This document shows, piece after piece, positions 5,240 to 44,847 of a DNA stretch of 64,000 nt. The notes below the pieces were generated by a model. That model ran no database searches, was not told the DNA's origin, and worked only from the letters and a program-made list of their open reading frames with translations. The DNA is taken from the NCBI RefSeq assembly GCF_021646685.1, contig NZ_JAKJHW010000001.1:310001-374000 (forward strand), in the 5' to 3' direction. The first letter of the stretch is position 1. Each line of letters opens with the position of its first letter. Source of the DNA: Pseudalkalibacillus salsuginis (GTDB lineage: Bacteria > Bacillota > Bacilli > Bacillales > Fictibacillaceae). Position numbers and translations under genes: made by a program.

Positions 5240-6919
5240 ATGACTTTTAAAATCCAGCATGATCAATCCTGGAGTACCGATTTCATTAAGCGCCTGGATG
5301 AAGATGGTCCATGGGCAAATTGGGAACTTTACAAGCTTGCATTAGAGGCAGAAGAGAGTTTGATAATACCCGATTTTCTCGGCCTGCAGGCACCGAAGCA
5401 TATCCCCCATGTCCAAATACTTCCTCATCAGCTGGAGGTTGCCCGAAAAGTCATTGAGGATATGAATGGAAAAGGGATTTTGGCAGATGAAGTAGGTCTG
5501 GGAAAAACGATCGAAGCCGGTTTGATAATGAAAGAATACATGATTCGTGGTTTAGCAAAAAAAATCTTAATTCTCGTCCCCGCTTCCCTTGTTTTGCAAT
5601 GGACCTATGAATTGAATACGAAGTTCCTCATCCCTGCTGTTCCCCAAAAGAAAGCTTATGTCTGGGAGCAATATGATGTGGTCGTTTCATCCATCGATAC
5701 AGCGAAGAGAAGCCCGCACCGTGAAATTGTTTTAGACCAGGATTATGATTTGATCATTATCGATGAAGCACATAAATTGAAAAATAAAAAGACGAAAAAC
5801 TATGATTTCGTGCAGCATTTAAAGAAAAAGTACTGTCTTCTACTAACTGCAACACCAATCCAGAACCGGATCCAGGAGGTCTTCAACCTTGTTTCATTAT
5901 TAAAGCCTGGTCATCTGGGCAATGAAGAGTATTTTGACGAAGCCTATAGATCAGGACGGTATGATGTTCAAAATGAAGAAAAGCTCAAGCAGTTGATCAA
6001 TAAAGTGATGGTTCGTAACAGGCGTGAAGATACTGGTTTGAAATGGCCGAAACGTATCGTAAAGACTGTTCCGATCACACTTTCACCTACAGAACGTAAA
6101 CTCTATGAATCCATTACACAAGCTCGGTCAAATACCGCTTATGAACAACACCATGCTTTTTCGACGATTACCCTTCAACGGGAAGTCTGCAGCAGTCGTG
6201 AAGCGGTTTTCTTAACGTTGAAAGCGATGGCTGAAAAAGAAGGTATCAGTGAGAGTGCAAGGGAGACAGCAATCTCCTTAATGCACGAAATCGAAAATGT
6301 CGATCGGAACTCAAAAGCGGAAAAAGCGCTGGAAATCATCCAGTCCATTGATGGAAAAGTGATCATCTTCACTGAATACCGGGCTACTCAACTTTATCTG
6401 CAATGGTACCTTCAACAGCATGGCATCAAATCTGTACCTTTCCGTGGCGGTTTTAAACGGAATAAGAAAGATTGGATGACACAACTTTTCAAAAATCACG
6501 CGAAAGTGCTGATTGCCACTGAAGCAGGTGGTGAAGGTATCAATCTTCAATTTTGTCAGCATATCATCAATTATGATTTGCCTTGGAATCCGATGCGGAT
6601 CGAGCAAAGGATTGGAAGGATTCACAGAATCGGCCAGGAGCATGACGTGCATATTTACAATTTTGCGACAGAAAACACGATTGAAGAACATATCCTCCGC
6701 CTTTTATATGAAAAAATCAATCTATTTGAAAATGTGATTGGTGACTTGGATGAAATCCTTTCCCGTGTGGGGATGAAAAACATTGAACAACATATACGGG
6801 ATATTTTTTACGATTCTGATACCGAGGGAGAAATCAGAGTGAAAATGGACAATTTGACTTCATTGTTGACTTATCCGAATAGTGAGGGGGATGCATATGC
6901 TTCAGAAGGACATTCATGA
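5240..6919 (+). CDS. yqhH: SNF2-family DEAD/DEAH-box ATPase (YqhH-like)
   Basis: This is a 559-residue superfamily 2 helicase-like ATPase of the Swi2/Snf2 type. Motif I reads ADEVGLGKTIEAG (near residue 81), motif II is DEAH in IIIDEAHKLKN, motif III is TATPIQN, and the C-terminal RecA lobe has ATEAGGEGINLQ (motif V) and QRIGRIHRIGQ (motif VI). Such proteins move along duplex DNA or remodel DNA-bound proteins such as RNA polymerase; the target of this one is not known to me. It overlaps the next gene, yqhG, by about 23 bp, so the two are probably made together. Confidence 0.9.
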   Translation: MTFKIQHDQSWSTDFIKRLDEDGPWANWELYKLALEAEESLIIPDFLGLQAPKHIPHVQILPHQLEVARKVIEDMNGKGILADEVGLGKTIEAGLIMKEYMIRGLAKKILILVPASLVLQWTYELNTKFLIPAVPQKKAYVWEQYDVVVSSIDTAKRSPHREIVLDQDYDLIIIDEAHKLKNKKTKNYDFVQHLKKKYCLLLTATPIQNRIQEVFNLVSLLKPGHLGNEEYFDEAYRSGRYDVQNEEKLKQLINKVMVRNRREDTGLKWPKRIVKTVPITLSPTERKLYESITQARSNTAYEQHHAFSTITLQREVCSSREAVFLTLKAMAEKEGISESARETAISLMHEIENVDRNSKAEKALEIIQSIDGKVIIFTEYRATQLYLQWYLQQHGIKSVPFRGGFKRNKKDWMTQLFKNHAKVLIATEAGGEGINLQFCQHIINYDLPWNPMRIEQRIGRIHRIGQEHDVHIYNFATENTIEEHILRLLYEKINLFENVIGDLDEILSRVGMKNIEQHIRDIFYDSDTEGEIRVKMDNLTSLLTYPNSEGDAYASEGHS

Positions 6920-31447: not shown

Positions 31448-31800
31448 AAGAAAAGCGATAACGCCCGATTAGCCACGAAGGTCACTGGAAGACCGACGAG
31501 GAGGCTGTTGCCGCCGCAGGAGGGCTGAAGTGATCCAAGTGGCTGGGCGTTGGAGCTGGACATCAAGAAAAGCGATAACGCCCTGATCAGCCACGAAGGT
31601 CACTGGAAGACCGACGAGGAGGCTGTTGCCGCCGCAGGAGGACTGAAGTGATCCAAGTGGCTGGGCGTTGGAGCTGGACATCAAGAAAAGCGATAACGCC
31701 CGATTAGCCACGAAGGTCACTGGAAGACCGACGAGGAGGCTGTTGCCGCCGCAGAAGGACTGAAGTGATCCAAGTGGCTGGGCATTGAAGCTAGACATTA
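31448..31800 (+). repeat. Family A repeat, three tandem units of 117-118 bp
   Basis: Units start at AAGAAAAGCG, positions 31448, 31565 and 31683. They are nearly identical and run head to tail without spacers. Each has 5' arm AACGCCC-AGCCAC, inner arm GGTCACTGG, centre CCGACGAGGAGGCTGTTGCC, then AAGTGATCC and the 3' arm GTGGCTGGGCGTT, ending GAGCTGGACATC. The third unit has one arm mismatch (GGGCATT). They lie between the T-box promoter and the end of mobA, antisense to both genes. Confidence 0.92.
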
Positions 31801-31876
31801 CTTTATCGAAAATAAAGTTATTATACATTTTTATCTTTTTAAAAAAACACTTTCACAATGATCTTGTAAAAGTGTT

Positions 31877-33461: not shown

Positions 33462-35861
33462 TTACATCTGTTGGAAAGTCTTTATTTTATGGATGAAAGA
33501 TTCGGATGTACGCCGTGCAAACTCCAAATCTGGCGCTTGGGAATATACCGTGAATGTAGGATCTACGATGTCTGGCAGTATCAGGGTCCATCCACCGTTC
33601 GGATGATATACTTTAATGCCATCTACAAGATCAGTCATTTGATCGCGTGTTTCTTCCATCAATCTTCGCATCACTCTGCCTTTTACCCTTGAAGGACATT
33701 CAACCTGTTCGCGGATCAACTTGGTGTTAGGAAGCATTTTGACAAGTTGAGATAAAGGCTTCTGTTGGTTGGCCATCATATTCAGTATAGAAGTGAGGGC
33801 AAGGATTGCATCGTATTGGACATTCAGGACTGTCCCTCCTATTTTCATGATGGAACGAGCATCAGCCTTCGTACGGACTAATTTTCCACGCAGGGAATCA
33901 GCTAAGTGATCGAGCTCGGATGAACCGTAAACAGGAATGGCATATTCATCAAACTCTAAGTCCCCTAGCGATAATAGAACATAAAGCGAGAGCAGTTGAT
34001 CATCACTCAGCCAATCACCCTCCTCTGTCAGTAACTTCAGTTTTTCTCCCGTCTCATCAATCCATACCCCAAGATGTGCATCTGTAACATTCAATACACC
34101 ATGCATTTGAGTGGCAGTCGTATTCATCGGTATTGAAACAATTTGACATTTTAGACGCTCCAAAACCCTTGATACCGCAGAGTCATGAGATTTCGATGCT
34201 ATATTCGTCACGATCTTGAACTCACATGCTTGGATATTCGACTGGTTGATTCTTTGTAAGATAGCCTTTTCATATTCTTCATTTTTGCTATGGTCCGATT
34301 CCTGCATACCAATCCGGTCATACGGCGCTCGGCGATAATCTTCCTGCCAGAATGCGTTTTCTATTTTACGTTCAAAATCTGTGGAAACCGGGTATCCATC
34401 TTCATCATAAAACTCGATGGCCGTTTGTTGATTACCGAATCGTATAAATGCACCTCCTGCCCACCCCTCTTTTTCAACCGAATACCTTAGAATTGGGCTA
34501 AGCGAAGGGGAAAGATCAACAGTGTGTATGCCGGAAGAGTGCAATCCCTGTTCAAATGATTGTAGGATCAGTTGAGAGAACGGATGGTTATCAGATGCGA
34601 TGGCCAGCTTTTTGCCCTGCATGAGGCAGGCTCCATATGCTGAAGCTACTCTAGCCGCAAAATCAGGTGTGATTTCGATGTTTGCAATACCTCTTATGCT
34701 TCGATTAGTGAATAAGGACCTTGAAATCCTTTTGCTCCAGATCAAGGAGGTGTGAATGGTCGAGTTATCGACAATCTCCTTTTTCGGCCATACTTTGACT
34801 TCAGGTTTGACGGTAACCTTTTTACCGACTTGGACTTGATTCCCGATCACACTATGTTCGAACATACTCGTTCCTTCACCAATGAATGTTCCGTTTGCAA
34901 TGGTTGAGCCACGTAATTCTGAATTGGCGCCAACATATACATCATTCCATAAAATCGATCGTTTCAGGGATGCGTTAGAAGAAATGATGCTATTGGAACC
35001 GATCACTGTATAAGGATAAATTTTCGCATTCTGACGGACTGTCGTTCCGCTTCCAATATAGGCAGGGGTCTTAATCGATGCATGGTGCTCGATCACCACA
35101 TTTTCCCCGATCCGAAGACCTGGGAGGACTTCCTTACCTGGAAGAGGCAGATTGATCTGTCCATCCAGAAAGTCTTCATGGCTTTTACGGTATTGACTCA
35201 GGCTTCCAATATCCGACCAATACCCCTCTGCCGGATATCCATATAGCGGCTTATGTTCTTTCATCAATAATGGAAACAGATCTTTACTGAAATCTGTCGG
35301 TACCCCTGCGCTCAAATAGTTGAAAACTTCCGGTTCCAATACATAGATTCCAGTGTTGACTGTATCGCTGAAAACTTCATTCCAACTCGGCTTTTCAAAG
35401 AATCTAATAATCCTCTGATCTTTATCAGTCATGATGACACCGTATTCAAGCGGATTTTCAACCTGTTTCATGAAGATCGTTACGAGTGCTTCTTTTTCTT
35501 GATGGAAATTGATTCCAGTCTGTAAATCAAAATCAGTAAGTGCATCACCGCTTATTACGATAAATCGTTCGTTTAGAAAGCTTTCGGCGTTTTTAATACT
35601 TCCAGCTGTTCCCAAAGGTGTCGTTTCTTCGAAATAATGGAGATCGACTCCAAAATGGCTGCCATTGCCGAAGTATTCTTTGATATGCTCAGGCAAGTAT
35701 TGAACAGTCACTGCAATTTCAGTGATTCCATATTTCTTAAGAAGTTCGATGGTATACTCCATGACCGGTTTTTCGAGAATCGGTACCATCGGTTTAGGTA
35801 AATTGCATGTTAACGGACGTAAACGTGTTCCTTTACCGCCTGCCATTATGACTGCCTTCAA
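33462..35861 (-). CDS. NDP-sugar pyrophosphorylase fused to phosphohexomutase-like domain
   Basis: A 799-residue fusion. Residues 1-235 are a nucleotidyltransferase: MKAVIMAGGKGTRLRPLT (GGxGTRLRP), EKPVMEYTIELL, and metal Asp in VISGDALTDFD. Residues about 245-370 are a left-handed beta-helix of hexapeptide repeats (YIGSGTTVRQNAKIYPYTVI). Residues 380-790 look like a phosphomannomutase/phosphoglucomutase, with LSPILRYSVEKEGWAGGAFI. The place where active mutases have the phosphoserine (TASHNP) reads IRFGNQQTAIEF, with no Ser, so the mutase half is probably inactive or altered. It starts at TTG 35861, nine bases after AGGAG, 1 bp beyond the upstream stop: last gene of the operon. Confidence 0.88.
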   Translation of the reverse strand: MKAVIMAGGKGTRLRPLTCNLPKPMVPILEKPVMEYTIELLKKYGITEIAVTVQYLPEHIKEYFGNGSHFGVDLHYFEETTPLGTAGSIKNAESFLNERFIVISGDALTDFDLQTGINFHQEKEALVTIFMKQVENPLEYGVIMTDKDQRIIRFFEKPSWNEVFSDTVNTGIYVLEPEVFNYLSAGVPTDFSKDLFPLLMKEHKPLYGYPAEGYWSDIGSLSQYRKSHEDFLDGQINLPLPGKEVLPGLRIGENVVIEHHASIKTPAYIGSGTTVRQNAKIYPYTVIGSNSIISSNASLKRSILWNDVYVGANSELRGSTIANGTFIGEGTSMFEHSVIGNQVQVGKKVTVKPEVKVWPKKEIVDNSTIHTSLIWSKRISRSLFTNRSIRGIANIEITPDFAARVASAYGACLMQGKKLAIASDNHPFSQLILQSFEQGLHSSGIHTVDLSPSLSPILRYSVEKEGWAGGAFIRFGNQQTAIEFYDEDGYPVSTDFERKIENAFWQEDYRRAPYDRIGMQESDHSKNEEYEKAILQRINQSNIQACEFKIVTNIASKSHDSAVSRVLERLKCQIVSIPMNTTATQMHGVLNVTDAHLGVWIDETGEKLKLLTEEGDWLSDDQLLSLYVLLSLGDLEFDEYAIPVYGSSELDHLADSLRGKLVRTKADARSIMKIGGTVLNVQYDAILALTSILNMMANQQKPLSQLVKMLPNTKLIREQVECPSRVKGRVMRRLMEETRDQMTDLVDGIKVYHPNGGWTLILPDIVDPTFTVYSQAPDLEFARRTSESFIHKIKTFQQM

Positions 35862-35862
35862 T

Positions 35863-38646
35863 TCACTTCACTCCTGCCATTGTCGGTTTCTTTTTGTCAC
35901 TTGCTAACACTTCACCAGTTTTTATGGAGATATCTTCCCAACTGTACTTCGTATGAACATCTTCTTGGGCTTGTTTACAGATGCGAAATGAAAGCCCTGC
36001 ATCTTTATATAGACGGATGATTTGATCCCGGATGCTTTGAGGATTGCCTGGATAGACTTTCAATCCGTTCACATCATGCTCGATGATATCGCCTAATCCT
36101 CCTGTGTCACTGACGATGACGGGCGTACCCGCTGCCATCCCTTCTAACGCGACGATACCGAACGGTTCATAATGGCTAGGGAAAATGACAGCATCCGATT
36201 CGTGTAAATAGTTGTTCCGTTCCTCATCGGATACAAAACCGATAAAAAATACCTGGTCTTCCAAACCTCTATGTCTCACTTTATTCCGGTACTCTTCAAG
36301 CATCGGTCCTTTCCCAGCGATGATGAATTTTATGTCGGGGTATACGTTTTTCAATAATGCGGATGCTTCAATAAGTGTTAGGAAACCTTTTTCCGGCACC
36401 ATCCTTCCAAGTGAAAAAACATGAAAGCAAGACCGCCCTCCAAAATTCGTTTTCCAATCTACAATCTGGTTTCCGGTTTTAAATAAATCAGACTCTACTC
36501 CGTTCGGAATAATCGTCATTTTGTCTCTCGGAACCTGGAAGACTTCGATTAAGTCTCGTTTCATATATTCACTGCAAACAATGATATGCCTCGACTCATA
36601 CATTAATTCCCATTCTTTATGATGGATTTCCGCCTGCTGGTCATTATGGATCCCTTTATTCCTACCGTATTCCGTTGCGTGAATTGTCGAATAAAGCGGG
36701 ATTTTCAGCCGTTGTTTCAACCCTTTGGCGGCAACACTTACGATCCAATCATGCGCATGGATGCAATCGAATGTGATTTGTTCGCCTAATTGTGATCCGA
36801 GTTCAGAAATCGCTATATTTAAGCTACCGGCCCAGTGATAAAAATCGTCATGATGAGGTTGTTTCCCACTTACACGAAAAACATGGACACCTTGATTGAT
36901 TTCATAATCCGGATAGCCATCGACGGCACAAGTAATGACATATACTTGATGTCCTTGCTTGACAAGTGTCCTTGATAAATCAAAAACATGTCTGGATAAA
37001 CCGCCAACGACCATTGGTGGGAATTCCCATGACAACATCAAAATGTTGAGGTTCTTTTCTCCGGTTCTATCATTTGGTTTCGAAAGGATATATTCATCGT
37101 GCCGTGACGAAAAACTCGATCCCTTCTGCCAATGGAGAAATGGATATCTCTCTTCATAATCCTGCAAATCACTCTCGAAAACCCTTTTATCATTCAGTTC
37201 TTTTACGAGTTCATTGAATACAGAGATATGCTCTTTCAATCTTGAAACAGCATAATCTGAGGCGCTCTGCTGATCCATAATGAATGACCAGTCACTGCTC
37301 GTTGCCAACAGCCATTCACGCTTCAATTGATCCAAAGCCCTCTGTGTAAGGGGGGCAGGGTTTTTATGAATCGTCATTTGTTTTACAAGTTCATGCTCCA
37401 TTGCGTGAAGATGTCTATAGATCCAGGCATTGGATTCATTTAGCCAGACTTCACCGTACCCATTTCTTCCCCATGTTGAAAAACATGTATGATGGGTCTG
37501 CAATTCTTGGTAATGGCGCTTGATGAATTCTTTAGGTGTGATCCATGGAATATTTGTTTTTTCAGACTTCATCAACATTTGAAGCCATTCAGGACCTTCA
37601 AACCACCAGTGTCCAAACAGCTCAGCATCAAAAGCTGCAAGCGTCACGCTAGCCGAGTCAGTGCCGCATTCCTTTATTCTTTCGCTCACAGTATGGAGGA
37701 AGTCTTCACAATGTTGTTCCGCCTTTCTAATTGCCTTTTCTCTAATATAGGTTTCTTTAGCTTCTGTATCCCCAGTTATGCGATAATATTTCAACCCTGT
37801 ATCGACCCTGATCCCATCTGGATGGATATAAGGTGCAATATAGTCATGGTCTCGGCCATACCCTACGTCACGATAAAATTCACGGTATTCATAATCACCT
37901 GGATAACCCGTCCTTGCATCCCACACCTTTTTAGATGTACTCACACATCTCGGGAATAAAACGATTCCATGCGGTGAGAAAACGGGTGTATTTTTTCTTT
38001 GAGATTCTGGATCCAGCTTTCTGATCGTATCCTCGTCCACAAATACATAACGGACCCCATCTTCATAAAGCACCTTATCAATACCAGGCGAAAAAGCACA
38101 TTCCGGCAGCCAGAAACCATCTGGCTTAAACCCAAAATGATGCTCAAAGCATTTCAATCCATCTTTGATCTGTGCACGGATTCCTTGTTCCGTTTGAATA
38201 TAAGGAAGGATAGCGTGTGTAGCGGATGAGGTGATGCCTTCTACTTTATCTTGAGTCATGAAATATCTGTAAGCTGAAATGAGATCGCAGTTCCATTCAA
38301 GAAAAGTTTCTTTGATTTTCTTGAAACGTTCTATGTAAAATTCTACGACTCTGCTTTCCTCAGGCTCTTTAACAAAGTCCCTTTCTTTCAACAAAAGCTC
38401 TTGTGTATTTCGAATATGGGCCAAATACCGTTCTTGGAACGTATTGCTAGCGAGCATTTCAAGTAATGGAGGTGAAAGTGAAAGTGTATATTTCACTTCT
38501 GATGAACATGATTCCAACCCCCACAGGAGAGGAATATAGGTTTCAGAAACTGCTTCAAATAACCATCTTTCCTCAAGACGATCAGGTTCCCTATGTAAAA
38601 CAAAAGGTAAATGCGCATGTAATACCAATGAAAAATAACTGTTCAA
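35863..38646 (-). CDS. GH57 (DUF1957) - GT4 glycosyltransferase fusion
   Basis: A 927-residue two-domain enzyme. Residues 1-520 are a GH57 alpha-glucan branching-type domain: VLHAHLPFV (motif 1), GFWLPECAFSPGI with the nucleophile Glu (motif 3), AAFDAELFGHWWFEGP with the acid Asp (motif 4), and STWGRNGYGEVWLN. Residues about 545-920 are a GT4 GT-B transferase: LSWEFPPMVVGGLSRHV at the acceptor side, FSLGRMVPEKGFLTLIEA, and HYEPFGIVALEGMAAGTPVI with the EX7E motif. Making and branching an alpha-glucan in one chain is the simplest reading. Starts at TTG 38646 after GTGAGG. Middle gene of the operon. Confidence 0.9.
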   Translation of the reverse strand: MNSYFSLVLHAHLPFVLHREPDRLEERWLFEAVSETYIPLLWGLESCSSEVKYTLSLSPPLLEMLASNTFQERYLAHIRNTQELLLKERDFVKEPEESRVVEFYIERFKKIKETFLEWNCDLISAYRYFMTQDKVEGITSSATHAILPYIQTEQGIRAQIKDGLKCFEHHFGFKPDGFWLPECAFSPGIDKVLYEDGVRYVFVDEDTIRKLDPESQRKNTPVFSPHGIVLFPRCVSTSKKVWDARTGYPGDYEYREFYRDVGYGRDHDYIAPYIHPDGIRVDTGLKYYRITGDTEAKETYIREKAIRKAEQHCEDFLHTVSERIKECGTDSASVTLAAFDAELFGHWWFEGPEWLQMLMKSEKTNIPWITPKEFIKRHYQELQTHHTCFSTWGRNGYGEVWLNESNAWIYRHLHAMEHELVKQMTIHKNPAPLTQRALDQLKREWLLATSSDWSFIMDQQSASDYAVSRLKEHISVFNELVKELNDKRVFESDLQDYEERYPFLHWQKGSSFSSRHDEYILSKPNDRTGEKNLNILMLSWEFPPMVVGGLSRHVFDLSRTLVKQGHQVYVITCAVDGYPDYEINQGVHVFRVSGKQPHHDDFYHWAGSLNIAISELGSQLGEQITFDCIHAHDWIVSVAAKGLKQRLKIPLYSTIHATEYGRNKGIHNDQQAEIHHKEWELMYESRHIIVCSEYMKRDLIEVFQVPRDKMTIIPNGVESDLFKTGNQIVDWKTNFGGRSCFHVFSLGRMVPEKGFLTLIEASALLKNVYPDIKFIIAGKGPMLEEYRNKVRHRGLEDQVFFIGFVSDEERNNYLHESDAVIFPSHYEPFGIVALEGMAAGTPVIVSDTGGLGDIIEHDVNGLKVYPGNPQSIRDQIIRLYKDAGLSFRICKQAQEDVHTKYSWEDISIKTGEVLASDKKKPTMAGVK

Positions 38647-38656
38647 TCTGTTCGCC

Positions 38657-39304
38657 TCACTTTAATAAACTATAGATCGAGTAGGTTGAGAATTGTTCAT
38701 ACCATTCAGGAGACTTTTGGGCGCCCGATTTCCATCTATCCACCGCCTCATTATGTCTCATAGAACCTCCTGCAGTCCGCGGTGTTTCTATAGGGGCAGA
38801 ACGTAATACTGTAAAAAATCCACTACACTCACACTGTATTCCGAAATCAACGATAAACGTCCGGTTATCTTCCAAATTGTTGATAAACCAGTTATCCGTC
38901 ATTTCTGGCAAACTGATATCAAAATACCAGTGACTGTTATGACCGTTAAAATGCAAGTCACTGATATCATAAACTCTCAATTGTTTATTCAGATCCGACC
39001 ACGGTTTCCTAAAATGATGAGCAACCATATTACTCGTAATAGTTTTCAGATCCCAATATGCATAGACGGTGTGAGGGCCTTGCGGTAAAAGGGCAAGGCG
39101 ATCCATTTCGTAAGTAGAAGGGATCTTTCTTGATATATGAACACGGGTCTCTGGAAGCTGATTTTTTTTGAATGAAGAGGTTCTATCAAGTTTTTGTAAT
39201 TTCCGAAGACGGTATTGGATTTTCCCGACAGTGCTGTCCATCTCTTCTGCGATCTGTTTGATTGTGTAGCCTTTGTTCTTCAGCGCTAAAATCTTTTCAA
39301 CCAT
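38657..39304 (-). CDS. DUF4912 protein with N-terminal helix-turn-helix
   Basis: A 215-residue protein. The first 45 residues form a helix-turn-helix-like unit (LALKNKGYTIKQIAEEMDST then VGKIQYRLRKLQ). Residues about 65-185 are DUF4912: LALLPQGPHTVYAYWDLKTI, LRVYDISDLHFNGHN, YFDISLPEMTDNWFI and GFFTVLRSAPIETPR. The domain looks like an immunoglobulin or CBM48-like beta-sandwich and travels with glucan enzymes. It could sense a glucan and control the operon, or bind the product. It is the first gene; TAGGAGG lies 5 bp before the ATG and the next gene is 10 bp on. Confidence 0.85.
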   Translation of the reverse strand: MVEKILALKNKGYTIKQIAEEMDSTVGKIQYRLRKLQKLDRTSSFKKNQLPETRVHISRKIPSTYEMDRLALLPQGPHTVYAYWDLKTITSNMVAHHFRKPWSDLNKQLRVYDISDLHFNGHNSHWYFDISLPEMTDNWFINNLEDNRTFIVDFGIQCECSGFFTVLRSAPIETPRTAGGSMRHNEAVDRWKSGAQKSPEWYEQFSTYSIYSLLK

Positions 39305-39632
39305 GATTACCTCCTATGACAGTAATATGAATAGTTTTCAACATCGTATCACCGGTTGATACCCCCATCAATAAGCGTAAAATGTAGAAAGTTGCGGTTT
39401 GTATGTACATCAATTTACTAGAGGTTTTATTTTATTTTTGCAAACGCATGCAATACAGATTACGCTATATTTTTACTTATTTTTCTTTCGTTGGACGAAA
39501 AGAGTAAAGATAAGCGGTAGAAATTGTCGAATTTTAATAGGAATTTAGGATTAGATTTAGTGAAAAAGCTACCCCATCGACAAAGTCTGTGATATAAAAG
39601 TATGTGAGATTATTTTTTATAGGGGGAGCAGG
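39305..39632. other. Divergent intergenic region, 328 bp
   Basis: A/T-rich gap between the glucan operon and the rightward small gene at 39633. It must hold both promoters. On the minus strand I see CATATTA about 20 bp upstream of the DUF4912 ribosome site, which could be a forespore-type -10, but no convincing -35 goes with it. No gene or RNA structure seen. Confidence 0.4.
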
Positions 39633-40410: not shown

Positions 40411-41070
40411 TTATTCATTTAAATCATAATGCTTACCTTTTACGAGGTAAACGATGCTTTCAGCGATGTTCGTTGCATGATCTGCAGTACGCTCTATATA
40501 ACGGCAAACAAAGCTTAACTGGATGATCTGATTTGTTGAATCTGGATACTCCTTCATCATGCTAAGAATCTCCTGGATCAATTGACCATATTTTTCATCC
40601 ACGTAATCATCCTTATCCGCCATTCTCTTCGCAAGCACAATATCCTCTTCTTTATAGGCTTGGATGGCTTCAGTCAGCATTTCCTTAGCCGTTTCTGCCA
40701 AAGCAGGAATATCTATGAGCGGTTTAATCAATGGTTCATTTCCAATGCGGATAACGGATTTTGCGATATTTACTGCAAAATCTGCTATCCGTTCTATATC
40801 AGAAGAAATTTTGATGGACACGATGATACGACGGAGGTCACTTGCAACTGGCGCTTGTTTCGCAATTAGGAGAATCGCTTTATCATTGATTTCTTCTTCA
40901 AGATCATTGATTCGGTAATCATTATCAATAATACGCAATGCTTGATCGATATCTTGATTTTTCAGCGCGTCAATCGCTTCCTCCAATGCATTCTCTGCCA
41001 GCTGACCTAATTGAACCAACATTTCTCTCAATTCATCCAACTGGGTTTGGAAACTTTCCCTCACAACCAT
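40411..41070 (-). CDS. phoU: Phosphate signalling protein PhoU
   Basis: A 219-residue all-helical protein built from two three-helix repeats. Each repeat has its metal-binding motif: DYRINDLEEEI with SSDIERIADFA, and DKDDYVDEKYGQ with RYIERTADHATNIAE. PhoU links the Pst transporter to phosphate control and restrains uptake. Last gene of the pst operon, 13 bp after pstB, closed by the terminator at 40352. Confidence 0.95.
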   Translation of the reverse strand: MVVRESFQTQLDELREMLVQLGQLAENALEEAIDALKNQDIDQALRIIDNDYRINDLEEEINDKAILLIAKQAPVASDLRRIIVSIKISSDIERIADFAVNIAKSVIRIGNEPLIKPLIDIPALAETAKEMLTEAIQAYKEEDIVLAKRMADKDDYVDEKYGQLIQEILSMMKEYPDSTNQIIQLSFVCRYIERTADHATNIAESIVYLVKGKHYDLNE

Positions 41071-41083
41071 TCAACACACTCCC

Positions 41084-41917
41084 CTATCCGAATCGACCTG
41101 TGATATAGTCTTCGGTTCTTTTATCTTCTGGATTGGAAAACAATGCATCTGTACCTGAGAATTCCACAACTTCACCATTCAAGAAGAATGCGGTCTTGTC
41201 GGAAATCCTTGCTGCTTGTTGCATGTTATGGGTGACGATGGCAATACTGTAGTCTTTCTTCAGTTCTTGCACCAATTCCTCCACTTTTAAAGTTGAAATC
41301 GGATCAAGTGCAGAGGTAGGTTCATCCATTAAAATGACATCCGGTTCGATTGCAAGGCAACGAGCAATACAGATACGTTGCTGTTGTCCACCGGAAAGAC
41401 CGTATGCATTTTCATTCAAACGGTCTTTCACTTCATCCCAAATCGCAGCTCCCCGCAAGCTTTTTTCAACAATCTGATCGAGTATCTTCTTGTTGCGTAT
41501 GCCATGGATACGTGGTCCATAGGCAATATTATCGTAAATGGATTTTGGAAACGGATTCGGCTTTTGAAAGACCATACCTACTTGAGTCCTTAATTCTTCC
41601 ACACGATATTTAGGTTGAAAAATATTTTTCTCACGATATTTGATCGCACCGGATATTTTTACGATAGGAACCATTTCTACCATACGATTTAATGTTTTAA
41701 TAAAAGTCGATTTTCCGCAACCGGATGGTCCAATAATTGCTGTCACTTCATTTTCAGGAATCGAGAGGTTAATTTCTTTTAATGCGTGCTCTTCTCCATA
41801 CCAGAGATTCAAATCCTTTGTCTCGAAAACATTCTTTTTGTTGCTGGCATTGCTGGTTGATTGATTCTTTTCTATTTTTCGTTTGTTGTTCTTTTTTTCT
41901 ATAGTAAGAGTGGTCAT
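41084..41917 (-). CDS. pstB: Phosphate ABC transporter ATP-binding protein
   Basis: A 277-residue ATPase of the high-affinity phosphate importer. Walker [19 protein letters not shown]-loop [16 protein letters not shown], signature [14 protein letters not shown], Walker [15 protein letters not shown] and the [14 protein letters not shown]-terminus are typical. It carries an extra basic N-terminus of about 30 residues ([18 protein letters not shown]) ahead of the ABC domain, which most PstB proteins lack. Start ATG 41917 after GGAGGG. Only one pstB is present, whereas B. subtilis has two. Confidence 0.96.
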
Positions 41918-41934
41918 TGATAATCCCTCCACAT

Positions 41935-42819
41935 TTATAATCTTCTTTGATATTTGTTCCGTATGATGATCGCTATTGAATTCATCAAGAATAAAAGCAT
42001 AAGCAGCACGACAATTGCTCCTGCAGCCAAGTTTGCATATTCCTTAGTCAGTGCAGAATCTATTGTCCAATAATAGATCTGTAACGGCATGACAGTGAAT
42101 TTATCAAAAATACTATCCGGAAATGGAATCAGCAATGCTGGGATTCCCAGAACAACAAGTGGAGCCGTTTCACCAATGGCACGGGATAACGATAAGATGA
42201 CACCAGTCAATATTCCTGGGAGTGATGCAGGCAAGACAACATTCTTTACCGTTTGCCATTTGGTAGCTCCCATACCATAAGAGGCTTCCCTTAAATATTG
42301 TGGGACAGCACGGATAGACTCTTGACTAGCCACTACCACGATCGGAAGAACCAGCAGGGACATCGTCAATCCACCGGCTAACACTACGTTTCCTAAACTA
42401 AAGCCTTTTACAAACACAGTTAGACCTAATAAACCGAAGACGATGGAAGGAACACCAGCCAGGTTGGCAATATTGGTTTGTATAAGTGATGGAATACGCC
42501 CTTTTTTTGCGTATTCCTCTAAATAAATCGCAGTTCCAACGCCAAGAATCATGGTTAGTGGGGCAACGACTAACATCAACCAGAAAGATCCTAAAAGCGG
42601 ACCCATTACCCCAGCATTTTCGGCAAAGGTGGATAATTTACCAGTCAGGAATTGGAGGTCGATCCATTGGATTCCCTGTGAAAACACACGATAAATCAAA
42701 ACAACTAGCACGATCAAGCCAAACATCGTTGATAAAAAGAACAATGACTTGGCTAATTTATTGGTTGTAAGGCGTAAGTTCATTCTCTTTTGTACTTGAG
42801 CCGTATCAACATATTTCAT
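41935..42819 (-). CDS. pstA: Phosphate ABC transporter permease PstA
   Basis: A 294-residue integral membrane subunit with six helices. The ABC-coupling EAA loop is [29 protein letters not shown]-like (about residue 175). An 11-residue internal stretch, [12 protein letters not shown], is the usual PstA block. The TTG at 42825 is a possible start, but ATG 42819, ten bases after GGAGG, is chosen. Its start overlaps or abuts the pstC stop. Confidence 0.95.
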
Positions 42820-42821
42820 AA

Positions 42822-43754
42822 TCAATATTCCTCCCTGTACCTACGAGAAACATACTGTGCAATCAAGTTCATAATTAGTGTGAAGACAAATAACGTCATA
42901 GCAACAGCATATAAACTGTAGTATAGAGTTGAACCTGCTGGTGCCTCTCCACCGGTAACTTCAACAATATACGCCGTCATCGTCTGCATGGACTGAGTGA
43001 CATCGAAGGTAAAGTTTTTTGAACTCCCACTTGCGATTGTCACGATCATGGTTTCACCAATCGCACGTGATATAGCTAGTACAAACGATGCAACGATACC
43101 GGAGATCGCAGCAGGAATGACGATTTTAAAAGTAACCTCAAGCCTTGTAGCTCCGAGTGCTGATGCACCTTGCCTCATCTCTGATGGTACAGAACTCATT
43201 GCGTCCTCTGAAAGTGAGGCTACCATCGGAATGATCATTACCCCCATCACAATACCAGGACTTAAAATATTGGTTGGTTCCAATCCCGGTATGATCGACC
43301 GTAATAAAGGCGTAACAAATGTAAAGGCGAAAAAACCATATACGATAGTTGGAATACCTGCAAGGATTTCTAATAAAGGCTTAAACGTCCTTCTTATCCT
43401 ATCTGAAGCATATTCACTTAAATAAACGGCTGTCATAAGGCCGATCGGTATCGCAACAATCATAGCAATGACCGTAGAAATCAAGGTACCGGTCAATAAC
43501 GGCAATACGCCGAACTGTGCATCTGCACCTAAAGGTTTTAATTTCGTTCCAGTAAAGAAATCAAGAAATGGGACTTGTTTGAAAAAAGCGATCGTCTCGA
43601 CTAATAAGGTAGACAAAATACCTACCGTAGTAAGAATGGATATGATTGCAATTGCTAATAGAATTTTCGGGATGATCTTCTCCCATATTCTTGTAAAATT
43701 CATTGTACTTCTGTTCTTTTGGATCATTTCGTTGACATTCAATTTCTTTTCCAA
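42822..43754 (-). CDS. pstC: Phosphate ABC transporter permease PstC
   Basis: A 310-residue permease partner of PstA with about six helices. The coupling loop MRQGASALGATRLEVTFKIV and the following AISRAIGETMIVTIASG are diagnostic. Start is TTG 43754, seven bases after AGGGG. It follows pstS by about 130 bp, a gap without obvious terminator. Confidence 0.95.
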   Translation of the reverse strand: MEKKLNVNEMIQKNRSTMNFTRIWEKIIPKILLAIAIISILTTVGILSTLLVETIAFFKQVPFLDFFTGTKLKPLGADAQFGVLPLLTGTLISTVIAMIVAIPIGLMTAVYLSEYASDRIRRTFKPLLEILAGIPTIVYGFFAFTFVTPLLRSIIPGLEPTNILSPGIVMGVMIIPMVASLSEDAMSSVPSEMRQGASALGATRLEVTFKIVIPAAISGIVASFVLAISRAIGETMIVTIASGSSKNFTFDVTQSMQTMTAYIVEVTGGEAPAGSTLYYSLYAVAMTLFVFTLIMNLIAQYVSRRYREEY

Positions 43755-43884
43755 TTTAGGACCCCTCTCACTCTAGACATTCTATATATTAGGGAATTTC
43801 ATTGTCTTTTTATATAAACAAGCCAAGAAGATGAGAAGTGCAACGACCCCTCATCCCCCTGTATTTTCCAATTAAGTGAATAGT

Positions 43885-44847
43885 TTATTTTTGCAACTCT
43901 TTTAGCTCATCTACTGTTTTTTTGTATTCTTCATCACTTAATGGGGCAAATCCAGTTTCCTTAGCAATTTCACCAGCATTTTCCATAGCGTAGATTGCAA
44001 AGTCTAATACTTGTGGTTTTTCTTTAGCCTGGTCTTCGTTCAAGTATGTGAATACTGGTCGTGTAAACGGACCATATTCACCATCTTCCTTGATTGTGTC
44101 GATGGAAGGTTCGACTGGTCCATCACCGAAATCGATTTTAACTGCCTTCACTTTGTCACTGTTACTTTCGTAATAACCGTAACCGAAGTATGCGATCGCA
44201 TTTTTATCTTTTGAAACCATATCTACAAGTGTTGAGTATTCTTGTTGAAGACTCACATCTTCTCTTAAAGGTTGCTCATCCAGGATTTTTTCGTAGAAGA
44301 ATTCATAAGTACCATGATTTTCATTCGGTCCATAAGCCTTGATTGGTTTATCAGGGAAGTCTGAGCGTACATCAGACCATTTCTTTTTATTTCCGCTAGC
44401 AAGGAAGATGTCAATTACTTCTTCTTCCGTAAGGTCGTCAATCCAATCATTATCTTTATTGACTACAATCGTGATCCCATCTAATGCAAGCTTTAACTCT
44501 TTATAGTTCATGCCAAGCTCTTCAGCTTTTGTTTTTTCTTCGTCTTTAATTTGGCGTGAGGCATTACTGAGATCCGTACCATTTTCAGCTAGAAACTTTT
44601 TAAATCCAGCACTTGAACCGGCACGTCCTACTTCAACAGAGACATTTTCTTGTTCATTTACCATATAATTCTCTGCTATTTTCGCCATCAATGGATAAAC
44701 TGTTCCAGATCCGTCTACAACTACACTACCTTCGAGTTCTTCATCACCGTTTGCAGATCCGCTTCCATCACCATTTCCACATGCTGTCGCAACGATGAGT
44801 AAAGCTGCCATCATCATGAAGAACGTGCTGCGTTTAAAAGCTTTCAT
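43885..44847 (-). CDS. pstS: Phosphate-binding lipoprotein PstS
   Basis: A 320-residue extracellular binding protein tethered by lipid. Signal peptide and lipobox are clear: FFMMMAALLIVATAC-GN with cleavage before Cys22. A Gly/Ser/Asp-rich spacer follows. Phosphate-binding blocks include VVDGSGTVYPLMAKIAE near the mature start, GRAGSSAGFKKFL and the late HGTYEFFYEKIL. First gene of the pst operon, preceded by a four-repeat PhoP box. GGGGG lies before the ATG. Confidence 0.96.
   Translation of the reverse strand: MKAFKRSTFFMMMAALLIVATACGNGDGSGSANGDEELEGSVVVDGSGTVYPLMAKIAENYMVNEQENVSVEVGRAGSSAGFKKFLAENGTDLSNASRQIKDEEKTKAEELGMNYKELKLALDGITIVVNKDNDWIDDLTEEEVIDIFLASGNKKKWSDVRSDFPDKPIKAYGPNENHGTYEFFYEKILDEQPLREDVSLQQEYSTLVDMVSKDKNAIAYFGYGYYESNSDKVKAVKIDFGDGPVEPSIDTIKEDGEYGPFTRPVFTYLNEDQAKEKPQVLDFAIYAMENAGEIAKETGFAPLSDEEYKKTVDELKELQK

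Follow-up and report, generated by a model that had tools for sequence, protein, structure and literature searches.

We analysed a stretch of 64,000 nucleotides from the genome of Pseudalkalibacillus salsuginis (contig NZ_JAKJHW010000001.1, positions 310,001 to 374,000; hereafter the window, whose positions are used below), which carries a three-gene operon for a putative alpha-glucan pathway. The open reading frames (ORFs) lie on the minus strand at 38657-39304, 35863-38646 and 33462-35861, with intergenic gaps of 10 and 1 bp, and the tight leftward operon drawn in a preliminary description of this DNA was thus confirmed. The first gene encodes a DUF4912 protein of 215 amino acids (aa), in which an N-terminal three-helix part resembling a helix-turn-helix (HTH) and a fibronectin type III (FN3)-like beta-sandwich are predicted. 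The second, with a TTG start, encodes a fusion protein of 927 aa, in which a catalytic domain of glycoside hydrolase family 57 (GH57; aa 7-326, 37669-38628) and a branching-enzyme C-terminal domain (BE_C; aa 412-504, 37135-37413) are followed by a domain of glycosyltransferase family 4 (GT4; aa 534-905, 35932-37047). The third, also with a TTG start, encodes a protein of 799 aa, composed of a nucleotidyltransferase (NT) domain (aa 2-231, 35169-35858), a left-handed beta-helix (aa 253-351, 34809-35105) and a pseudo-phosphohexomutase domain (aa 383-799, 33465-34715). The Pfam matches were DUF4912 for the first protein, Glyco_hydro_57, BE_C and Glycos_transf_1/Glyco_transf_4 for the second, and NTP_transferase, LbH and PGM_PMM_I for the third.

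Gene order and the fusion were kept in all 30 loci fetched from a sample of 34 genomes of the same family (Fictibacillaceae), with a short third gene in one of them (L091), and in 17 of 17 loci from named Bacillaceae, two of which come from the same genomes as family loci. This recurrence indicates that the operon arrangement is not due to chance, and it answers the question of co-occurrence of the three genes that had been raised earlier. The short third gene ends at 405 aa and belongs to Bacillus sp. Marseille-Q3570 (L002/L091; 8786-10003 in L002), and in Halalkalibacter akibai the fusion is split into two frames (L015, 5989-8767); either case may be real or an assembly error.

The GH57 half of the fusion has intact catalytic residues, Glu182 inside the Pfam match and Asp340 just past it, which aligned with those of the solved glycogen branching enzymes (GBEs), and the Glu and Asp motifs pointed out earlier were correctly read. 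The best solved match was AmyC from Thermotoga maritima (PDB 2b5d, 385 bits; next chain 233 bits). The loop bearing the tip Tyr in the Thermococcus and Thermus enzymes is short in this half, as in AmyC, which places it outside the "true GBE" group defined by a flexible loop with that Tyr. A Cys follows the catalytic Glu (WLPECAF), and BE_C scored 78 bits. According to the accessible part of PMC6616209, this Cys is a criterion for GH57 branching enzymes, and AmyC is a branching enzyme with hydrolysis of up to 30% and 8.5% alpha-1,6 bonds. The accessible part of PMC10346327 states that enzymes without the loop and beta-strands make up 92% of the GH57 branching-type sequences, and that the loop-less TmGBE57 of T. 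maritima showed low branching and the highest alpha-1,4-transglycosylation among the three enzymes tested. Branching by the GH57 half is plausible and probably weak, as judged from its sequence. A model of the full-length fusion (mean predicted local distance difference test (pLDDT) score 76, predicted template modelling score 0.55) was too weak for the domain arrangement and was not used. Another, weak match to the GH57 profile (32 bits) comes from a different part of the genome and lies in a frame of 1050 aa (G000:C13:387099-387419).

The GT4 half scored 148 bits with Glycos_transf_1 and 105 bits with Glyco_transf_4, and its motifs GGLSRHV, GRMVPEKG and EPFGIVALE are intact, so that the joining of GT4 to GH57, already described, is confirmed by both domains and motifs. 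Of 92 aligned rows, 88 keep the E-X7-E pair within the last motif; the other four are non-Bacillales rows without a GT4. Among the NCBIfam matches listed (25 of 51), TIGR02149, a Corynebacterium-type glycogen synthase, scored highest over the GT4 half, with 119 bits, below its cut-off of 302. The fusion falls outside GlgA of family GT5, scoring 84 bits against the TIGR02095 cut-off of 328.

In the third protein, the NT motifs GGKGTRLRPLT, PKPM, SGDALTD, EKP, NTG and DIG are intact. The sugar-binding motif is NTG, as in the solved glucose-1-phosphate uridylyltransferase 8x7s, while 7whr has NAG; we take NTG to mark specificity for glucose rather than mannose. The closest solved chain is named UTP-glucose-1-phosphate uridylyltransferase (246 bits), and the best match to the NT domain among the NCBIfam matches listed was a mannose-1-phosphate guanylyltransferase model, with 249 bits against a cut-off of 440. 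The protein lies outside GlgC, with 124 bits (119.5 in a six-frame search) against the TIGR02091 cut-off of 425. The mutase-like domain aligned over its full length with 9du5 and 1wqa, and the catalytic Ser loop, the Mg loop (DGDADR), the sugar loop (GEENGG) and the phosphate loop (SGTEP) are all lost. Relatives were compared in an alignment of 61 rows, a biased set made of the window protein and 60 loci scoring more than 150 bits to it, with two genomes included twice; eight rows end before the domain, and the sugar loop was not tallied. None of the rows covering the respective region retains its motif: 0 of 53 for the Ser loop, 0 of 53 for the Mg loop and 0 of 49 for the phosphate loop. Since the loss extends to metagenome-assembled genomes (MAGs) of Clostridia, the domain is an old, conserved pseudo-enzyme and not a product of decay in this strain. 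The nucleotidyltransferase, beta-helix and mutase fold assigned to this protein in the preliminary description were upheld; by sequence the mutase-like domain is a pseudo-mutase, and an active mutase has to be given up.

The DUF4912 assignment of the first protein held with 97 bits (PF16258, gathering cut-off 29.4). The HTH proposed for its N-terminus was found by Pfam only as a sub-threshold hit (E 0.006), and the predicted model (mean pLDDT 86) supports it in part, with three confident helices preceding the beta-sandwich. The best 50 of 1819 Foldseek matches of this model were FN3 domains or receptor chains containing FN3. No carbohydrate-binding module (CBM) was among these 50, and DUF4912 as a glycogen-binding CBM was rejected. 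The FN3-like fold of the model would suit a scaffold or a binding protein, and glucan sensing is not implied by it. DUF4912 appeared in the literature searched, which left out most subscription papers, only in a cotton callus context.

The genome of the window is 99.6% complete, and the model searches found none of the classical GlgA, GlgB, GlgC and GlgP in it, GlgE and GT3-type synthases lying outside these searches. PF08323 matched the fusion only; no GlgC exceeded the TIGR02091 cut-off, the best score (119.5 of 425 bits) being that of the operon's own gene; and no GlgB exceeded the TIGR01515 cut-off (best 37 of 464 bits). The preliminary description had called the operon separate from the classical glg operon and had considered that a glgBCDAP operon might do the same work. 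As the classical genes were not found in this genome, the first statement is wrong, no such operon was found for the second, and the three genes described here matter more than was assumed. Within the family, a fusion frame of 926-960 aa with a glycosyltransferase match was present in 31 of the 34 genomes and in none of G022, G027 and G030. G030 is the only family genome with a classical GlgA (PF08323 305 bits, 485-aa frame) and with GlgC and GlgB over their cut-offs, and GlgB over the cut-off was not found in the other 33. GlgP was looked for in 11 of the 34 genomes and was found in none; it was likewise not found in the genomes of L002 and L003, which belong to the genus of the window.

The spread of the genes was followed in two further samples. 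A scan of genome contigs found 254 relatives, and 80 loci were kept. A DUF4912 relative was detected in 63 of these (phmmer E ≤1e-5; several contigs are short), and in 59 of the 80 it preceded the best GH57 frame on the same strand by at most 300 bp. Loci with DUF4912 relatives occur in Bacillota, Nitrospirota, Omnitrophota and others; in one of the loci (L022) a weak DUF4912 match (33 bits), GH57 and GlgA stand side by side. From the order, 299 genomes were sampled, and DUF4912 was present in 87, including 77 from outside the family; 40 of the 77 were fetched down the ranking, skipping others mostly of the same genus, and seven of the 40 repeat genomes of the named loci. All 40 order loci have DUF4912 directly before the relative of the fusion or of GT4, and a third-gene relative was present in 28. 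The GT4 motif was intact in all 40, and the GH57 half was intact in 20, degenerate in 17 (L128, L129, L131-L133, L135-L139, L141-L143, L146, L148, L150 and L121) and absent in three. L138 was counted as degenerate because it has lost HxH and FGHWW; it keeps the Glu and Asp columns, and scoring by these two residues alone gives 21, 16 and three, respectively. The GT4-only loci have the same neighbours as the fusion loci. A Bacillus subtilis control gave a DUF4912 match, and the fusion locus presumably corresponds to yqgL-yqgM of that species. A link to the spore coat (ytxO/cotSA) was considered and dropped, as synteny places the locus by pst/phoU and the 5-formyltetrahydrofolate (5-FTHF) cyclo-ligase gene.

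In a GT4 tree of 83 rows, the degenerate GH57 halves fell into two separate clades, and the GT4-only state was nested twice within degenerate rows. The forks between the two degenerate clades are not all well supported, and a single decay is therefore possible. Classical GlgA and GlgP were both present in 20 of 20 genomes with a degenerate or absent GH57 half. Among the 20 order genomes with an intact half, GlgP was present in all and classical GlgA in 17; it was not found in G078 and G118, and G237 (62% complete) was ambiguous. Because the order genomes are related, an association of GH57 decay with the classical genes is only suggestive.

Upstream of the operon, comparison with relatives revealed a conserved candidate promoter of the sigma-A type on the minus strand at 39343-39371 (TTGATG, 17 nt, TACGAT, with an extended -10 TG). 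A scan with the sigma-70 consensus gave promoters no more often than in shuffled sequences and did not list this one, for which reason the promoter is put forward from the comparison only; the scan gave no convincing terminator after the third gene. A site resembling the catabolite-responsive element (cre) of CcpA is located on the minus strand at 39438-39452 and matches exactly WTGNAANCGNWNNCW, which we take to be the cre consensus. A cre-like site with at most one mismatch was present in 31 of 31 family upstreams (20 shuffles: mean 4.5, maximum 11) and an exact one in 16 of the 31 (shuffle mean 0.1), the genomes being related and the 31 upstreams thus not independent cases. Outside the family, no such site with at most one mismatch was found in the 14 other named Bacillaceae loci (L004-L013 and L015-L018).

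A second conserved element overlaps the -35 region (39366-39387, minus strand). Its sequence in the window is CTACATTTTACGCTTATTGATG, with five mismatches to the order consensus CKACAAWWTGCGTTYATTGTAG. Matches to CKACAAWWTGCGTTYATTGTAG within three mismatches occurred in 29 of 79 deduplicated upstreams versus 0 of 1580 shuffled sequences, the consensus having been drawn from the same loci as scored. The match was poor in most of the other named loci and in the largest genus of the family, and among the upstreams of the order loci (L112-L151) an element of about 20 bp overlapping the promoter was nearly invariant in 21 of 40. The element core was searched in 23 genomes, most of them picked since their locus carries the element: each of the 17 exact matches found lay upstream of the DUF4912 gene, and allowing up to two mismatches raised the number to 34, with 20 at the operon and 14 elsewhere (reversed control 10). 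Because the exact core is confined to operon upstreams, the element looks operon-specific. A copy of the core with two mismatches at 6848-6866 on the plus strand (G000:C7:316848-316866) is in line with the background rate of such matches. Three candidate modes of control were considered. Autoregulation by the HTH-DUF4912 protein gains no support from co-occurrence, since loci whose DUF4912 protein is without the HTH retain the element (L146, L148, L149, L150 and L151). Exact Spo0A boxes were enriched (6 of 31 family upstreams, shuffled mean 0.5; 4 of 14 other named upstreams, shuffled mean 0.1), yet the element as a whole does not correspond to a Spo0A site. Control by PhoP, suggested by a tandem-like 10-11 bp pattern and by the proximity of the pst genes, was a reading by eye only.

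The neighbours of the operon are pst/phoU genes, a 5-FTHF cyclo-ligase gene and a mobA-like gene, that is, housekeeping synteny. In the window, phoU and a gene for a PBP-like protein, both recognised by Pfam, adjoin the operon at 40411-44847, with pstB-, pstA- and pstC-like genes, named by eye, between them; a phoU relative was located near the operon in 29 of the 30 family loci and in 25 of the 40 from the order. A frame of 119 aa at 31469-31828 has no Pfam match, and its protein carries the segment NAQPLGSLQS.CGGNSLLVGLPVTFVA twice; it probably represents repeated DNA and not a gene.

We consider it rather probable from these sequence comparisons that the operon encodes an alternative route to an alpha-glucan resembling glycogen; no other such pathway was found in its own genome. 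Our best reading is that GT4 and DUF4912 would form the constant core of a carbon-regulated alpha-glucan pathway. The NT half of the third protein would make NDP-glucose, the GT4 half of the fusion would extend an alpha-1,4-glucan with it, and the fused AmyC-type GH57 half would act on that chain as a remodelling enzyme, branching it, hydrolysing it and catalysing alpha-1,4-transfer. The pseudo-mutase domain may be an appendage with a structural or allosteric function, and DUF4912 may accompany the synthase constantly, as its scaffold, as a contact to the glucan or as a regulator. In this family, CcpA would control the synthesis of the polymer, which would be consumed with no GT35 phosphorylase involved. 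We infer the donor, the product, the role of DUF4912, the CcpA-controlled synthesis and the GT35-free use. The preliminary description had proposed a self-contained pathway that activates a sugar and builds and branches a polymer; the conserved co-occurring set of NDP-sugar, synthase and GH57 genes is in keeping with an alpha-glucan pathway. Its "branching" step was weakened, because the half is of the AmyC type without the Tyr loop, for which weak branching and strong hydrolysis are reported.

Several observations weigh against an alpha-glucan pathway of this kind. GT4 enzymes as a family span many donors and products, and the NT subfamily scores are ambiguous, with a mannose-1-phosphate guanylyltransferase model best and below its cut-off. 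GT4 stays intact after loss of GH57; the polymer may therefore be unbranched, or something other than glycogen. The own genome gave no match to PF00343 (GT35 phosphorylase, GlgP), an enzyme that would mobilise a store. The operon encodes the sole alpha-glucan synthase only among the types searched, as GlgE and GT3-type synthases were not. Among the 14 other named Bacillaceae with the fusion, 13 have classical GlgA and 14 have GlgP, and this coexistence means that the operon is not simply a replacement. An activity for any GH57-GT4 fusion was not found in the literature searched, which left out most subscription papers, and such a fusion was not seen in the accessible part of the review PMC11046441.

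A bolder form of the proposal is tentative, and we hold it possible though on balance doubtful. It describes a phosphorylase-free alpha-glucan system unlike storage glycogen, with an ancient GT4 and DUF4912 core, a two-in-one synthase and remodeller, a pseudo-mutase sensing hexose phosphate on the pyrophosphorylase, and an operon-specific operator; it would be the sole alpha-glucan synthase in this family, and elsewhere in Bacillales the GH57 and NT parts would be lost step by step until only DUF4912 and GT4 are left as a pair.

Instead of a storage glucan, the operon might make a polysaccharide with a specialised role inside the cell or in the envelope, similar to the methylglucose lipopolysaccharide of mycobacteria. 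Outside the family, most of the tested carriers also possess classical GlgA and GlgP, which would fit such a product, as would the retention of the operon in a family without phosphorylase found in the genomes searched and a parallel with the Rv3031/Rv3032 pairing (accessible part of PMC4555173). The operon contains no methyltransferase, acyltransferase or export gene, its neighbours are housekeeping genes, and another phylum has GH57 joined to a genuine GlgA; these points make the polysaccharide unlikely. The search for sugar methyl- and acyltransferases, negative in the operon and the scanned neighbours, did not extend to the remaining genome.

It is quite unlikely, in our judgement, that the enzyme proper is GT4, with a GH57 half that mostly hydrolyses or trims and so determines how long the chains are or turns the glucan over instead of branching it. 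The AmyC type with its short loop, the AmyC hydrolysis and the low branching and high alpha-1,4-transfer of the T. maritima enzyme cited above speak for trimming, and the GH57 half is evolutionarily dispensable where GT4 is not; against it stand the alpha-1,6 bonds formed by AmyC and the 33 of 34 family genomes in which no GlgB over the cut-off was found. A polymer from GDP-mannose or another NDP-hexose is very improbable, since the best NCBIfam model listed for NT and the phosphomannomutase/phosphoglucomutase fold of the pseudo-mutase, which would suit it, are opposed by the closest solved NT chain, the motif NTG rather than NAG and the alpha-glucan-active type of the fused GH57.

If the alpha-glucan pathway is correct, most of a Bacillaceae-type family would make alpha-glucan via a GT4-GH57 enzyme, and genomes taken to be unable to synthesise glycogen would have been misjudged. 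DUF4912 and the unstudied GT4 gene near the pst genes of many Bacillales would gain a function, and the order loci would offer a natural series in which the fused hydrolase dies and is later lost while its partner synthase persists.

Among known systems, AmyC shares with the GH57 half the aligned catalytic Glu and Asp, the short catalytic loop and an insert, but it has no synthase fusion, the solved chain being 528 residues. The glgBCDAP operon of Bacillus follows the same inferred logic of pyrophosphorylase, synthase and branching enzyme, whereas the window operon uses GH57 and not GH13, GT4 and not GT5, an NT below the GlgC cut-off, and no phosphorylase; classical GlgA, GlgB and GlgC occur in 1 of the 34 family genomes. 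In mycobacteria, Rv3031 belongs to GH57 and Rv3032 to GT4, and we know of no DUF4912 or NT-mutase fusion in their cluster. They are separate genes accompanied by the methyltransferase Rv3030, and they resemble the fusion in bringing a branching-enzyme-like glycoside hydrolase and an alpha-1,4-glycosyltransferase into one cluster (accessible part of PMC4555173). A cluster in Clostridia MAGs (e.g. L023 and L028) contains GH57, GT4, NT-pseudo-mutase with the same dead mutase, and DUF4912, but GH57 and GT4 are unfused and the genes form two convergent pairs. In two Planctomycetota MAGs, GH57 is fused N-terminally to a glycogen synthase which is a GT5 with the GlgA signature and not a GT4 (L045, 219-3315, 480 bits; L075, 503-3622, 506 bits; GlgA cut-off 328). 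A DUF4912 relative was not found in these two loci, the L045 contig being too short to tell. Judged by their sequences, they are an independent fusion of GH57 and glycogen synthase, which supports the pairing of the two activities in the window protein.

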